Assembly: GCA_022690815.1 (NCBI GenBank) | Contig: JALCZJ010000005.1 | Span: 1-64,000 of the forward strand | Direction of reading: 5' to 3' | Length of the DNA stretch: 64,000 bases | Source of the DNA: Ferrimicrobium sp. | Lineage (GTDB): Bacteria; Actinomycetota; Acidimicrobiia; Acidimicrobiales; Acidimicrobiaceae | Notes under the pieces: generated by a model | The model's database searches: none | Told to the model about the DNA's origin: nothing | What the model saw: only the letters and a program-made list of their open reading frames with translations | Shown: in pieces, positions 52,234-59,170 of the stretch | Position numbering within the stretch: the first letter of the stretch is position 1 | How the letters are laid out: each line of letters starts with the position of its first letter | Made by a program: the position numbers and the translations under genes

Positions 52234-52811
52234 AGCGCCGTCATGTCACACACATCAACGTGGTGTGTTGAAGCCTTCGAACACCGCCACGATGGCCACC
52301 AGGCTCGAGCCACCGCCCGAACACTCGGCAAAAATACAACGCTGGTGGCCCGATGCCGCCAAGGCTTTGTGCCGTGACCCGAAGATTGGCGCCAACGCCA
52401 CCATCACAATGCAGGCCTGAGTCAAACATATCGTCATATCCTGTCGAACGTAGAGCGTCAAACATCTAGAGAGCCTAAACCAGCATAATCACGGCTTCTC
52501 ATGCGCTCACAACGCTGTGCGCTGGGACCGGCGATGTGCCGGCTCAATACCACGCTCGAGGGACCGTCCACTTGAGACAGAGCCCACTCACGTACGTTTA
52601 TTATGTCTCGTTGCAGGAGATTGCTCTGACAACTGTTGGAACCCCTCTGGTACCAGGTCCTGATAGACGTGTGCCCAGTAATCTTGAGCGGATCAACAGC
52701 CCAAAGCTACTAACTCAGCGGAGAAGCAGTGAGCGATGGGATAACGTCCAATCAAATGACGTCCAATCGATGGCATCGCCGACCGAGGTATCGGCAACTG
52801 CCCCATCGGCG
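52234..52811. other. 578-bp stretch without a recognisable gene
   Basis: It lies between the MBL hydrolase and tRNA-Leu(CAA). Short frames on both strands lack motifs and ribosome sites. No mobile element ends were found. Confidence 0.45.
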
Positions 52812-52894
52812 TACCCGGGGCGGGACTCGAACCCGCACGCCCTTTCGAGCAGAGGCTTTTGAGGCCTCCGTGTCTACCATTCCACCACCCGGGC
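52812..52894 (-). tRNA. tRNA-Leu (anticodon CAA)
   Basis: On the minus strand the acceptor GCCCGGG pairs with CCCGGGT (one G-U pair at the first position), then discriminator A; CCA is not encoded. The anticodon stem GAGGC/GCCTC encloses CTCAAAA, giving CAA, which reads UUG. The variable arm GCTCGAAAGGGC is long, as expected for leucine. The T arm is GCGGG TTCGAGT CCCGC. Confidence 0.93.
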
Positions 52895-53023
52895 TAGGGC
52901 AACCAGCATAATCTAGCATCAACGTGTAACCAATCAGCGAGCAACGACATCAAAACTACTGAAAGCAAAACGGTGAAAGATTGGTGACGATCTCACCGAG
53001 AGCTATGGAGGTAACGAGCGGCA

Positions 53024-54229
53024 ATGATTGCCTTTGTCTTTCCAGGGCAAGGATCACAGCAGGCAGGCATGGGGGCCCCTTGGGCAGACCACCCGTCCTT
53101 TGAGCTTGTCGAAGAGGCGAGTACGGTCCTCAATCGCGACTTGACCCATCTACTCACCGATGCCGACTCCGATGCCCTCCAGATCACCCGCAACACACAA
53201 ATCTCAACTTTTCTCCTATCGATGGTTGCTCTCGACGCCGTCGAGCGACTTGGGGTTGCCCCGCAGGTGTGTGCCGGACACTCACTCGGTGAATACGCGG
53301 CCCTGGTCGCGGCCGGTGGCCTCGCATTTGACGCCGGCCTTCGGCTCGTTCAAGAGCGAGGTGAGGCCATGGCGGTCGCCGCAGAGGCTCAGCCGGGTGC
53401 GATGGTGGCCCTTCTAGGGGCGGATCTAGATGTGGCTCGCGCGATCTGTGACAGCATCCCGGGAGACCTCTGGATCGCCAACCATAACTCGTCCACCCAA
53501 ATCGTGCTCTCAGGCACCCATGACGCCATTGTCCAGGTCGAGGAGCGGGCTAAGGAGTTTGGTGTAAAGCGGGTCACGCGCCTGAAGGTCGGTGGCGCGT
53601 TTCATTCGCCTTACATGGAGGCGGCACGCGACCGGCTGAGTAAGGCCATCACCGCTACCAAATTCTACGACCTCGAGGTGCCGGTGATCGCAAATGTCGA
53701 CGCCCGCGAACACGTCGATGCCGATGAGTGGCCTGGGCTGCTCGCCGATCAACTCACCCATTCCGTACGCTGGGAAGAGACGATTCAGTATCTGCGGGAG
53801 CTCAAACCGCGCCTCGTGCTTGAGGTCGGACCCGGTGGCGTCCTAACCAACCTCTTAAAGCGCACGGCACCTGAATTGCGCGTCCTCTCAGTCGCCACGC
53901 CAGCCGATCTCGAAAAACTGCTCGCGCTAGTTGCCGCTCAGGGTCCGATGGATGACTGGGCCACGTCCCACCAGGGGGAGCGCCTCTATGGAACCGAACG
54001 CCTCGTCGTGGCGCCATCGAGCGGCGTCTTTCAGCCTGAGGCAGCGGCCTGTATGCCTGGAGGGCCGATCGCGGTTGGCGATCTACTCGGTGTCATCGGT
54101 GAAACGCAGCTTCGTTCGCCGTTTGCAGGAACCCTTCAGGGGATGATCGCACTCCCGGGGGAACGCGTCACTGCGGGCCAACCAATCGCCTGGCTCACAA
54201 CCGATTCGCAGCGCTCTATGGAGGAGTAG
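53024..54229 (+). CDS. fabD: Malonyl-CoA:ACP transacylase with C-terminal lipoyl-like domain
   Basis: 401 residues, about 95 more than ordinary FabD. The transacylase part (1-305) has FVFPGQGSQQAGMG, the nucleophile Ser87 in AGHSLGEYAALV and the catalytic histidine in GGAFHSPYM (His194). It loads malonyl groups onto acyl carrier protein. Residues about 325-392 look like a biotinyl/lipoyl barrel-sandwich domain (LVVAPSSGVFQPEA, VGDLLGVIGE, LRSPFAGTLQGMIALPGERV, AGQPIAW), but the usual MKM/DK attachment hairpin is missing. It is the first gene of the fatty-acid cluster. TGGAGG lies upstream of the ATG. Confidence 0.93.
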   Translation: MIAFVFPGQGSQQAGMGAPWADHPSFELVEEASTVLNRDLTHLLTDADSDALQITRNTQISTFLLSMVALDAVERLGVAPQVCAGHSLGEYAALVAAGGLAFDAGLRLVQERGEAMAVAAEAQPGAMVALLGADLDVARAICDSIPGDLWIANHNSSTQIVLSGTHDAIVQVEERAKEFGVKRVTRLKVGGAFHSPYMEAARDRLSKAITATKFYDLEVPVIANVDAREHVDADEWPGLLADQLTHSVRWEETIQYLRELKPRLVLEVGPGGVLTNLLKRTAPELRVLSVATPADLEKLLALVAAQGPMDDWATSHQGERLYGTERLVVAPSSGVFQPEAAACMPGGPIAVGDLLGVIGETQLRSPFAGTLQGMIALPGERVTAGQPIAWLTTDSQRSMEE

Positions 54230-54348: not shown

Positions 54349-55272
54349 ATGGGAGCACGCATCACTGGCTTTGGGTCAGCCTTGCCGGAGCGTATCGTCA
54401 CCAACGCCGAATTTGAGAAATATCTCGATACCTCCGACGAATGGATTACCTCGCGGACCGGGATCCGAGAGCGCAGATTTGGAGGCACGACCACATCGCT
54501 CGCCGTTGAGGCTGGTCGCAATGCAATCACATCGGCGGGTCTCACACCAGCCGATATTGACTTTGTCATCCTCTCAACGACCACCCCAGATCAGACCGTC
54601 CCCGCCACCTCGGCCGAAGTGACGTTCCAACTCGGGACCAGCGGAGCTGGCATGGACATCAATGCCGCCTGCGCCGGGTATGTCTACGCTCTCGTCACCG
54701 CCCGTGGTCTCATCGAGATGGGATATCATCGGATCCTCGTGATCGGCGCCGATACGCTGTCCAAGATCACTGATCAGCACGACCGTTCGACCGCAGTCCT
54801 CTTTGCCGATGGTGCTGGGGCCGTCGTCCTCGAGTCGAGCGAGGCCGAAACCTTCCTCGGATGGGACCTGGGCGTCGACGGCTCTGCACGGCCCATCCTG
54901 TACTGCGACCACGGAGGTTATATGTACATGGAGGGCCAAGAGGTCTTCAAGCGTGCAGTCAGGGCGATGCTCGAGTCGGCACAACGAGCGCTCAAGCAGG
55001 CCGGGGTGACCGGAGATGATGTCGGCCTCTTGGTGCCTCATCAGGCGAACCTTCGCATCATCCAAGCAGCCAACGAACGCCTCGGGATTCCACTGGAGCG
55101 TACTGCCTTGGTGCTCGACAAGACCGGAAACACCTCGTCGGGTTCCATCCCGCTCGCGCTCGCCGACGCTGCCGGTGCTGGACGACTCGCAGACGGTGAC
55201 TTAGTCCTCTTCACCGGCTTTGGGGCCGGCATGACGTGGGCCAGCGCCCTAGTTCGTTGGGAACTGCCATGA
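54349..55272 (+). CDS. fabH: 3-oxoacyl-ACP synthase III
   Basis: 307 residues. It starts each fatty acid by condensing acyl-CoA with malonyl-ACP. The catalytic cysteine is Cys108 in DINAACAGYVYAL; the histidine lies in VPHQANLRII and the asparagine in KTGNTSSGSIPLAL. The N-terminal ITGFGSALPERIVTN and EWITSRTGIRERR are family signatures. GGAGAGG precedes the ATG. 119 bases separate it from fabD. Its last four bases overlap the fabG start. Primer choice (acetyl or branched) cannot be read from the sequence. Confidence 0.95.
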   Translation: MGARITGFGSALPERIVTNAEFEKYLDTSDEWITSRTGIRERRFGGTTTSLAVEAGRNAITSAGLTPADIDFVILSTTTPDQTVPATSAEVTFQLGTSGAGMDINAACAGYVYALVTARGLIEMGYHRILVIGADTLSKITDQHDRSTAVLFADGAGAVVLESSEAETFLGWDLGVDGSARPILYCDHGGYMYMEGQEVFKRAVRAMLESAQRALKQAGVTGDDVGLLVPHQANLRIIQAANERLGIPLERTALVLDKTGNTSSGSIPLALADAAGAGRLADGDLVLFTGFGAGMTWASALVRWELP

Positions 55273-55979
55273 GTCACGTTCTTGTCACCGGTGCCGCCTC
55301 AGGTATCGGACTCGCGAGCGCCATGCGTCTGGTCGCCGATGGGCATGACGTCACTGCAACCTACCATGGGACGCCACTTCCTGTCGAGCTCGCCGGTTGT
55401 GCGAGTGTCCAGCTCGACATCACCGATGCCGCTGGAATCCAAGCCGCCATCAAAGAGGCCGAAGCTCGCTCGGGCCCCGTCGAGGTCTTGGTTGCCAACG
55501 CTGGAGCTACCAGAGACATGCTTCTTGCACGGATGGACGACGCGCGATTTGAGGAGATGCTCAACACCAATCTGACGTCTGCCTTTCGACTCACGAAAGC
55601 AGTGCTCCCGTCGATGATGAGGGCGCGACAGGGCCGACTGATCTTCATTTCGTCGATCGTCGGGCTCACCGGGGGGCCAGGCCAGACCAATTACGCAGCA
55701 TCAAAGGCCGGACTTATCGGATTTGCACGCTCAGTAGCTCGCGAACTAGGGTCACGCAACATCACCGCCAACGTCATCCTCCCCGGTGCAATCGATACCC
55801 AACTGCTCTCAGAAGCGGGCGAGAATCGGCGCACCCAGATCGAATCACAGATCCCGCTTGGCAGAGTTGGTCGTCCCGACGAAGTCGGTGCGGTAGTACA
55901 GTTTCTGGCCTCCAGTGGGGCCAGTTACATCAACGGCGCGCTTATCACCGTTGATGGTGGACTGGGGATGGGTATTTAA
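55269..55979 (+). CDS. fabG: 3-oxoacyl-ACP reductase
   Basis: 236 residues from the ATG at 55269, which overlaps the fabH stop (ATGA). It is a short-chain dehydrogenase that reduces 3-oxoacyl-ACP with NADPH. The nucleotide-binding motif is TGAASGIGLASA (about 7-18), followed by VANAGATRD, the catalytic serine in FISSIVGLTGG, and the Tyr-Lys pair in NYAASKAGLIGF. The C-terminus YINGALITVDGGLGMGI is the usual end. Its position between fabH and acpP supports the fatty-acid role over other reductases. Confidence 0.95.
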   Translation: MSHVLVTGAASGIGLASAMRLVADGHDVTATYHGTPLPVELAGCASVQLDITDAAGIQAAIKEAEARSGPVEVLVANAGATRDMLLARMDDARFEEMLNTNLTSAFRLTKAVLPSMMRARQGRLIFISSIVGLTGGPGQTNYAASKAGLIGFARSVARELGSRNITANVILPGAIDTQLLSEAGENRRTQIESQIPLGRVGRPDEVGAVVQFLASSGASYINGALITVDGGLGMGI

Positions 55980-56051: not shown

Positions 56052-56294
56052 ATGGATCGACAAGAGGCATTTGAGAAGTTCACCGAGTGCACCGTCAAGG
56101 TTCTAGGTGTCAACAAGGATCAGGTCGTGGAGTCAGCGAGTTTCGCCGACGACCTCGATGCCGACTCCCTCGATCTCGTCGAGTTAATTATGGCGCTTGA
56201 AGACGAATTCTCGGTCACCGTACCCGAGTCTGAACTCGAGGGTGTTGACACGGTCGGAAAGGCCTTTGATCTCGTTTACGGGAAGCTTGGATGA
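56052..56294 (+). CDS. acpP: Acyl carrier protein
   Basis: 80 residues, the normal size. The phosphopantetheine arm attaches at Ser39 in DDLDADSLDLVELIM. The protein is acidic, with the four-helix pattern of ACP and the C-terminal EGVDTVGKAFDLVYGKL. It carries the growing chain between the Fab enzymes coded around it. Its stop overlaps the fabF ATG by four bases. Confidence 0.96.
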   Translation: MDRQEAFEKFTECTVKVLGVNKDQVVESASFADDLDADSLDLVELIMALEDEFSVTVPESELEGVDTVGKAFDLVYGKLG

Positions 56295-57493
56295 GGCTGA
56301 GTTACGGCGACAACCCGATCTTTGCCACGCACCGCGTCGCGGTCACCGGGCTAGGGGTGATATCGGGCCTAGGCCTGAATCTCGAGAGCTTCTGGCAGGG
56401 GTTGCTCTCACCCCCACCACCTGGGATCCGCCGAGCTGAGGGCTTTGACCCCACCAACTGGCTCAACGCCAAGGAGATTCGACGTCACGATCGTTACAAC
56501 CAGATGGGAGTCGCTGCTGCCGATATGGCGATCAACGACGCCGGCAATCCGACCTACCCAGCCGAGCGTGTCGCTGTCTGGATGGGAACCGGAGTCGGTG
56601 GTCTTGAGAGTCTTGAGAATCAGGTGGTTATTGGCCATGACCGCGGATACTCGCGGGTGTCACCGTTCCTTGTTCCGCTGATGATGGCGAACTCTAACGC
56701 CGCATCGATCTCGATGCGCTTTGGCTACCAAGGTCCTTGCGAGACGTCGGTGACCGCATGTGCGGCATCGAATCACGCGATCGCCAACGCGGCGCATCTG
56801 ATCGCCACCGGCCGGATCGACATGGCTATTACCGGTGGAGCCGAAGCAGCTATCACAAAAACTGCCTCCGCAGGCTTCACAAACATGACCGCCATCTCAA
56901 AGGTTGACATCTCCCGACCATTTGACCGAAACCGTGATGGCTTCGTGATGGGAGAGGGAGCTGGCGTCCTTGTGCTTGAGGACTTCGACAAAGCGCAGGC
57001 GCGTGGCGCGAGGATCTATGCCACCATCGATGGCATCGCCTCGACCGCTGATGCCTATCACATCACACAACCAGCACCTGGCGGCGTTGGGGCACGTAGC
57101 GCTATGTCAATGGCGATCGAGGATGCTGGCCTTACCACGGCTGACATCGCTCATATCAACGCCCACGGAACATCGACCCCGATGAATGACCTCGCGGAGG
57201 CGACGGCGATTCGGACACTGTTTGAGGAGTTGAACCCTCCAGTCACCTCGGTAAAAGGTGCCCTTGGGCACGCACTTGGGGCCGCGGGTGGACTCGAAGC
57301 AGTGGCCGTGGCGCTAACCTTTGCCCATCAGCTGATACCTCCAACCGCCAACACCGTCGATCTTGACCCAGAGGTTGACATCGACGTGGTGATGAAGGAT
57401 CCTCGACCACTCCCGGCTGGGCATATCCTATCGAACTCCTTCGGCTTTGGAGGTCACAACGCCTGTATCGTCTTTGGGCCGCCACCGGCGTAA
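56291..57493 (+). CDS. fabF: 3-oxoacyl-ACP synthase II
   Basis: 400 residues. It elongates the acyl chain by condensation with malonyl-ACP. The catalytic cysteine is Cys157 in SVTACAASNHAI; the two histidines are in INAHGTSTPMND and KGALGHALGAAGG. The N-terminal RVAVTGLGVISGLG and the C-terminal ILSNSFGFGGHNACIVF are typical. It overlaps acpP by four bases and closes the cluster fabD-fabH-fabG-acpP-fabF. FabZ, FabI and acetyl-CoA carboxylase genes are not in this window. Confidence 0.95.
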   Translation: MRLSYGDNPIFATHRVAVTGLGVISGLGLNLESFWQGLLSPPPPGIRRAEGFDPTNWLNAKEIRRHDRYNQMGVAAADMAINDAGNPTYPAERVAVWMGTGVGGLESLENQVVIGHDRGYSRVSPFLVPLMMANSNAASISMRFGYQGPCETSVTACAASNHAIANAAHLIATGRIDMAITGGAEAAITKTASAGFTNMTAISKVDISRPFDRNRDGFVMGEGAGVLVLEDFDKAQARGARIYATIDGIASTADAYHITQPAPGGVGARSAMSMAIEDAGLTTADIAHINAHGTSTPMNDLAEATAIRTLFEELNPPVTSVKGALGHALGAAGGLEAVAVALTFAHQLIPPTANTVDLDPEVDIDVVMKDPRPLPAGHILSNSFGFGGHNACIVFGPPPA

Positions 57494-57550: not shown

Positions 57551-59170
57551 ATGTCATCTGATGAAACCAGCCACCCTGGAACCCTCGAAACCGACGATGC
57601 AAAGGTCGGTTCATTCTCCTTGGCGCAACCGTGGATCGTCAACCCGGAGCGCCTCGAGTGGCTACCCGCCACCCAACAGTTGCGGGCGCGTACACGTGCT
57701 CAAGTGCCCGTCCTGCTGCGACAGCGGCGCATCCCACCAGCACGGCGAGTGATCGGAACCGGTATCTCCCTCGGTGTCGCCCTCCTCGGTTGGCGCCTGC
57801 TTGACCGTCGGCGTGGCAAAAGCGAGTCTCGTCGCGGCCTCTCACGTCGTCTGCGCCGTTCATTCGAGCACTTGGGTCCCACCTATATCAAGTTGGGTCA
57901 AATCATCTCATCAGGCGAAGGAATCTTTCCTGTAGAACTGGTGGACGAGTTCCGGCTCTTGCGCGATAGCGTTCCAGCCGAAGATTTTACCGTGGTACAA
58001 AACACCATCGAGGAAGACCTCGGCGGACCGCTCGAAAACTTCTTTGCGACATTCGACAAAAAGCCAGTTGCCGCCGCCTCAATCGCTCAGGTCTATTTTG
58101 CGACCCTTCTGACCGGAGAGCCCGTCGCTGTCAAGGTCCAACGGTCCCAAGTCAGTGATCTTGTTCGCCGTGATCTGGCGGCGATGAGCTGGATTACTCC
58201 CCACCTCATCGGTCGCATTCCGGTCGCTGCGCTCGCAAACCCACCCGCCCTTGTTGAGCTCTTTGCCGAGACCATCGTCGAAGAACTTGACTTCCGTCTT
58301 GAGGCTGCCAACATGCTTGACATCGCCGGCGTCCTAGCGGCCACCGATCAGCGCAGCATCATCGTCCCTCGGCCCCACCCAAACCTGGTGACCAGACGGG
58401 TACTCGTAATGGAACGACTACGTGGCTTTAAATGGGACGACGCTATCGGCATGCGCAAAGCAGGGATCGATACAACCGCCGTCGTGCGGGCCGCACTCGT
58501 CTCATTCCTCGAAGGGGCGATGCTCCACGGAGTGTTCCATGGTGATCTCCATGGCGGTAATCTCCTAGTTGGTGACGATGGCAAGGTCGTACTGCTCGAT
58601 TACGGCATCACCGGAAGACTCTCCGAAGCCAAGCGCCTTGGATTCCTGCGACTACTCATGGGGGGCTCGATGAATGATCTTCAGTCCCAAATTCAGGCCT
58701 TGATCGATCTCGGGGCGCTACCCACCGACACTGACATTCAAGCGGTCATCGACGATCTTGGACTCGAAGAGCCGGCCAAGGATCCCACCCAAATGCGACC
58801 CGAGGAGATGATTGCCGAAATCCAAGAGCTGACCAAAGCCTTGCTGGGATACGGTGCCCGCTTGCCGAAGGAGTTGATGTTGTTTGTCAAGAACATGATC
58901 TTCGTCGACTCGTCACTCGCAACGCTCGCGCCAGAGATCGACCTCTTCGCTGAGATCACCTATCTCGCTTCGTACTTCATGACCCGCTACGGCGCCCAGA
59001 TCTCGGCCGACATTGGAATGCAAGTCTCCCCCACTGCCATCGATCTCGGTGGACTCAAAGCGAGTCTAGGCGTCGATGCCGAACTCGAACATCTGAGCTA
59101 TCGGGAGCTCAAGGAGCGGCGCGAGCTGATCCGCCGACGTATGGAACAGAGCCAGGGCCGTCGGGGCTAG
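57551..59170 (+). CDS. UbiB/ABC1/AarF family atypical kinase
   Basis: 539 residues. Motifs of the ABC1 kinase-like family are clear: the family-specific GPTYIKLGQIISSGEGIFP (about 111-129), the alanine-rich loop AAASIAQVYFA, the lysine in PVAVKVQRS, HGVFHGDLHGGNLLV and LLDYGITGRLS. Such proteins bind ATP and support quinone synthesis or membrane-lipid homeostasis. One helix may lie near residues 66-80, and the usual C-terminal hydrophobic hairpin is not evident. Which quinone is made cannot be told; actinobacteria use menaquinone, so a role in ubiquinone is unlikely. Its stop codon overlaps that of the convergent gnd in the four bases CTAG. Confidence 0.88.
   Translation: MSSDETSHPGTLETDDAKVGSFSLAQPWIVNPERLEWLPATQQLRARTRAQVPVLLRQRRIPPARRVIGTGISLGVALLGWRLLDRRRGKSESRRGLSRRLRRSFEHLGPTYIKLGQIISSGEGIFPVELVDEFRLLRDSVPAEDFTVVQNTIEEDLGGPLENFFATFDKKPVAAASIAQVYFATLLTGEPVAVKVQRSQVSDLVRRDLAAMSWITPHLIGRIPVAALANPPALVELFAETIVEELDFRLEAANMLDIAGVLAATDQRSIIVPRPHPNLVTRRVLVMERLRGFKWDDAIGMRKAGIDTTAVVRAALVSFLEGAMLHGVFHGDLHGGNLLVGDDGKVVLLDYGITGRLSEAKRLGFLRLLMGGSMNDLQSQIQALIDLGALPTDTDIQAVIDDLGLEEPAKDPTQMRPEEMIAEIQELTKALLGYGARLPKELMLFVKNMIFVDSSLATLAPEIDLFAEITYLASYFMTRYGAQISADIGMQVSPTAIDLGGLKASLGVDAELEHLSYRELKERRELIRRRMEQSQGRRG

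Follow-up and report, generated by a model that had tools for sequence, protein, structure and literature searches.

The usual scheme of type II fatty-acid synthesis shows free enzymes that have one soluble carrier protein in common and, upstream of them, an unattached acetyl-CoA carboxylase. The fabD gene in the Ferrimicrobium sp. window (the whole stretch of 64,000 nucleotides that was analysed) raises the question of what a malonyl-CoA:ACP transacylase might do with an additional C-terminal domain. A sequence-only reading had described residues 325–392 as a barrel-sandwich hybrid from which the segment for biotin or lipoate attachment is missing, and had offered a docking or regulatory link to acetyl-CoA carboxylase or ACP, or a structural relic, as its role.

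The FabD open reading frame is intact (53024–54229, + strand) and encodes 401 amino acids. Pfam Acyl_transf_1 spans residues 4–284 (E 1.3e-36), the active-site motifs GHSLGEY and AFHSPYM are present, and the NCBIfam fabD model TIGR00128 is matched with 265.1 bits against a cut-off of 260.9, placing the protein within FabD. Relative to TIGR00128 FabD, the catalytic core is complete and the fab cluster is the usual one, whereas the window protein is longer by ~97 C-terminal residues, comprising a linker and the barrel-sandwich domain. The features of the locus are as follows.

53024..53935, + strand: FabD catalytic core (malonyl-CoA:ACP transacylase), residues 1–304, from Acyl_transf_1, TIGR00128, the two active-site motifs and AlphaFold2
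53936..53992, + strand: flexible linker, residues 305–323, with pLDDT <50 at 313–323
53975..54199, + strand: biotinyl/lipoyl-like barrel-sandwich domain without attachment hairpin, ~residues 318–392, from AlphaFold2, family alignments and dN/dS
54349..55272, + strand: fabH, the gene found directly 3′ of the domain in 78/82 sampled loci
55269..55979, + strand: fabG, also matched in clusters
56052..56294, + strand: acpP (acyl carrier protein)
56291..57493, + strand: fabF, followed here by an ABC1 kinase gene and in separate-form Acidimicrobiia by accD
57551–59170: ABC1 kinase gene, 3′ of fabF

The stop codon of acpP and the start codon of fabF share a 4-base overlap (ATGA, 56291–56294), which fits an operon. 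Just 5′ of fabD lies a tRNA-Leu (caa) gene on the − strand (52811–52894); open reading frames called over it, at 52536–52911, were rejected as spurious.

The structure of the whole FabD was predicted with AlphaFold2 using 32 sequences of natural fused relatives, giving a pLDDT of 91.7. Values were mostly >90 in the core up to residue 304 and low over the linker (~305–323), the length and sequence of which vary between relatives; six strands then followed between 325 and 392, as a block with pLDDT 84–94. A version of the domain that relatives encode as a separate gene was also predicted (pLDDT 89.9), and the strand order of the FabD tail is the same. When this separate form was superposed with VIA-align on the BCCP of E. 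coli (4hr7), 71 residues aligned at rmsd 1.1 Å (Z 12.4), and its best solved matches were BCCPs (Foldseek 7.5e-6). Compared with the biotinyl domain (PF00364), as represented by the E. coli AccB C-terminal domain and P. horikoshii BCCP, the fold is the same over the whole domain (Z 11–12, rmsd 1.1–1.8 Å, 21–30% identity). A profile built from 35 relatives likewise matched solved biotinyl domains with E values of 1e-7 to 1e-4 (1o78, 2e-7; 2d5d, 6e-7). The predicted fold, the superposition of the separate form and the profile matches together uphold the barrel-sandwich reading of the tail, and the fold of the biotinyl domain was found where its absence would have overturned that reading. The strands do lie within residues 325–392, but the domain starts somewhat earlier, at about residue 318, where a GE...ER motif is found.

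Despite the shared fold, the defining residue of a BCCP is absent. Lysine occupies the biotin column of the alignment in 0/82 members, and the (A/V)MKM motif that marks biotinylation is lacking; the lipoylated lysine of the DK hairpin, as seen in E2 and GcvH domains, was likewise not found in that column. Separately encoded relatives keep the hairpin at the length seen in BCCP but without the lysine, and 43/56 of these separate forms have glycine at the biotin column. In fused forms of the window's order the hairpin is deleted altogether, the window protein included, in agreement with the missing attachment segment noted earlier. A hidden attachment lysine was considered and rejected: scattered lysines lie ≤8 columns from the site in 10/82 members, none of which falls on the site itself or is conserved. 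The same genome encodes E2 and GcvH domains that retain their attachment lysines, as well as one BC–BCCP subunit with EAMKM, a real BCCP. The family has motifs of its own: GE..(x4)ER precedes the first strand and GER...QPxAWLR closes the domain, with P..G.F, SPFAG and GERV..QPIAW also conserved in the tail. In three FabD tails, L190 (G285) and L189 and L191 (G231 and G277), an insertion lies inside the barrel-sandwich domain (~40–50 residues in L190); fabG is directly 3′ of fabD in these three clusters.

The top sequence relatives of the domain are BCCP/biotinyl families, and separate forms match BCCP-type models best. Searched alone, the window's tail gave sub-threshold matches to Biotin_lipoyl, HlyD_3 and YqeB, and none of the curated Pfam/NCBIfam models took it above cut-off. 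An HlyD/RND periplasmic adaptor was rejected on score (HlyD_3, 17.6 against 22.2; RND_mfp, 18.3 against 94.9), as was YqeB, for which TIGR03309 gave 21.7 bits against a cut-off of 220, over the tail region only. The C-terminal domain of YqeB nevertheless resembles the tail: it lacks the hairpin, begins almost alike with ER.(x)SPA.GVF and is picked up by the family profile. It belongs, however, to a Rossmann-type protein involved in the maturation of Se/Mo hydroxylases. As judged by the defining lysine the domain is neither a BCCP nor a lipoyl domain, and by score it is neither YqeB nor an efflux adaptor; the family is not captured by curated Pfam/NCBIfam models. As a separate observation, the YqeB C-terminal domains at L159, L160 and L161 share both the start and the absent hairpin with fused FabD tails, through either relationship or convergence.

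To establish how widely the domain occurs, the 99-residue tail was searched by tblastn against 296 genomes of the class; 136 had a match, the weakest of which include ordinary biotinyl or lipoyl domains. Within the window's order, the match sits in a frame of FabD length, and one continuous FabD–tail frame was verified in 15 families, so that a frameshift artefact joining FabD to a short gene is ruled out. Other families within the order and class encode the domain separately, in an open reading frame of ~85–110 residues lying precisely between fabD and fabH. When 396 genomes of the phylum were searched with a profile, more separate genes in this position came to light, and fused FabDs were found in a further three families (f68, f85 and f102). 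Apart from Aquihabitans sp. G128, the named separate-form loci of a public scan came almost wholly from Acidimicrobiia or from MAGs of unclassified Actinomycetota. The FabD tail belongs to a family of small barrel-sandwich proteins that resemble BCCP, lack its biotinylated lysine and occur across the Actinomycetota. The separate gene in the fatty-acid synthesis cluster is its ancestral-looking form, and the empty hairpin was deleted after fusion in the window's order. In a FabD+FabH tree of 67 loci the fused or separate state changes 3 times, two of the changes being forced by starred branches, which implies about three separate fusions of the domain to the 3′ end of fabD in the phylum. The sequence-only reading knew of no described FabD with this layout, and in the open-access literature that was searched nothing relevant was found on a FabD with a biotinyl/lipoyl-like tail or on such a gene in actinobacterial fab clusters. 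The layout is not unique to this genome but is the norm in 15 families of its order.

Selection on the tail was estimated by the Nei–Gojobori method in 12 close pairs. Values of dN/dS were mostly 0.03–0.21 for the tail, with three tail pairs saturated at synonymous sites, and 0.02–0.17 for the FabD core; purifying selection acts on the tail as it does on the core. A relic or passive stabiliser, that is, a former BCCP captured by FabD that now merely stabilises the fold, would be consistent with loss of the attachment hairpin in the fused clade and with loss of the whole domain in some lineages. We consider it very improbable and reject the relic because the dN/dS of the tail is low and core-like; the domain is moreover kept as an independent gene across the phylum and, where fused, hangs on a disordered linker instead of being necessarily packed against FabD. 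Strong purifying selection would also suit a regulatory input domain, through which a ligand or a signalling protein (e.g. PII-type) acting on the tail would alter FabD or carboxylase activity. PII-type proteins bind BCCP domains, and the conserved polar motif of the family (ER, GER, W-L-R) is absent from real BCCPs. However, the present analysis connected the tail with no pocket, no ligand and no signalling gene, and we regard such a role as unlikely.

Gene neighbourhoods were then compared across the sampled loci. The usual order with the separate form is fabD – small gene – fabH – fabG – acpP – fabF, often with accD last. In 72/82 loci fabD is 5′ of the domain or fused to it. The accD gene follows fabF in 25/27 separate-form Acidimicrobiia loci; L041, one of the two exceptions, ends earlier. 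In the fused clade it was near in 1/19, having mostly gone from the cluster, and six tail-less Acidimicrobiia had a fab cluster with accD in 0/6. These counts are not independent of ancestry, and short contigs can hide accD; its presence is confounded with ancestry because the separate, fused and tail-less states follow clades. A strict rule by which fusion equals loss of accD from the cluster fits Acidimicrobiales but is broken by L140, which is fused and has kept accD. In the window genome the closest relative of the cluster accD lies on another contig (49% identity). The accD genes of separate-form clusters and of genome G550 encode an acyl-CoA carboxylase beta subunit, as judged by similarity to solved AccD/PccB, including AccD6 and AccD5 structures. 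In mycobacteria (fabD-acpM-kasA-kasB-accD6) a carboxyltransferase gene ends the cluster, as in separate-form loci; the mycobacterial cluster is not known to contain a small BCCP-like gene.

The same neighbourhoods bear on the main rival explanation, a protein–protein module within the type II synthase that would bridge FabD to FabH or ACP and aid malonyl-ACP transfer to the first condensation, with no part for the carboxylase. Such a module would account for the nearly constant position of fabH directly 3′ of the domain (78/82), for the adjacency or fusion to fabD, for the repeated fusions to FabD, and for retention of the gene where the fab cluster has no accD, as in several deep families (L122–L132, L137–L139 and L141). 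It fits less well with L045 and L173, where the domain is kept without a fabH neighbour, or with L146–L149, L152, L153, L155 and L156, where FabD is unlinked. The fold, moreover, is the one that the carrier domain of the carboxylase itself adopts. In families f79, f86 and f93, fabD is elsewhere and the cluster runs small gene – fabH – acp – fabF – accD, which speaks for the carboxylase link. The two hypotheses come apart in G550, where the small gene lies 3 nt 5′ of accD, whereas fabH (contig 12) and fabD (contig 15, ~380 kb away) have no copy of the domain alongside. This single case splits the carboxylase from the FabH/FabD hypotheses and favours the carboxylase; we consider the bridge to FabH or ACP possible but doubtful.

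Since the domain exists as its own small gene in fatty-acid or carboxylase clusters elsewhere in the phylum, it probably couples malonyl-CoA production to use. We tentatively favour a reading in which it is a non-catalytic BCCP mimic, comparable with plant BADC, that would dock on acyl-CoA carboxylase and, when fused, tether malonyl-CoA use to supply. Docking would take place at a BCCP-binding surface of the enzyme, on either the AccD carboxyltransferase or the biotin-carboxylase/BCCP subunit, and the docked mimic would not participate in carboxyl transfer. The free subunit would assist in assembling or tuning the carboxylase supplying fatty-acid synthesis; the FabD-fused form, on its flexible linker, would keep transacylase and carboxylase together, malonyl-CoA being consumed at its site of production, with a corresponding effect on flux. 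Of the roles first offered for the tail, it is the docking or regulatory link to acetyl-CoA carboxylase that genomic context favours; the structural relic is not supported, given the purifying selection on the tail.

Plant BADC proteins of the heteromeric acetyl-CoA carboxylase provide the precedent. In Arabidopsis they are 25–30% identical to BCCP and lack the AMKL motif, and they were first described as inhibitors and later as an aid to carboxylase assembly (PMC11926652). Both they (PMC11926652) and the actinobacterial family are BCCP homologues without a biotinylation motif that are kept beside a real BCCP, here the EAMKM-bearing BC–BCCP of the window genome. Plant BADC differs in being plastidial, in its longer mature chain, in not being fused to a transacylase and in having known binding partners; the likeness proposed here is one of function. 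Docking on the carboxylase is supported by the BCCP fold, the absent lysine, the conservation of the tail, recurrent fusion, the accD neighbourhood and the BADC precedent. It is weakened because the gene is also found in fab clusters without accD, because accD has mostly gone in the fused clade and because some Acidimicrobiia live without the domain; the mimic reading is weakened further because the N-terminal extension that full-length BCCP and BADC possess is missing from the members. A more specific proposal, which we consider rather unlikely as it stands, is that the family is an unrecognised biotin-less BCCP-like subunit of an acyl-CoA carboxylase dedicated to fatty-acid synthesis in Actinomycetota, its FabD-fused form in Acidimicrobiales and two other lineages being a counterpart of BADC that acts as a channelling tether through which malonyl-CoA is taken directly. 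A carrier mimic that lacks biotin, is conserved within the fab cluster and has repeatedly become part of FabD would physically link the committed step to the first transfer and, if this is true, would be a bacterial parallel to BADC, whose mode of action is disputed. The separate and fused forms are ready natural variants for testing this idea.

Five near-complete genomes of the class (G047, G087, G095, G190 and G003) gave no FabD match at E 1e-10, and the sole FabD match of G059 lies inside a frame of ~2400 amino acids; in some lineages of the class the type II system may have been replaced by a large multidomain synthase. Two loci were set aside from the family: L046 (G089), which carries an ordinary lipoyl-domain sequence, and L044 (G012), where the lysine-less domain is not in a fab cluster. 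The latter BCCP-like open reading frame (L044:5088–5396, − strand) lies near aroQ-efp-nusB and pyrR-pyrB-pyrC-carA; in Firmicutes, accB and accC are located between efp and nusB. A further lysine-less barrel-sandwich protein found with the same profile, also away from any fab cluster, is encoded at L133:4873–5250 (G319), just 3′ of a DegT-type-aminotransferase-like gene.
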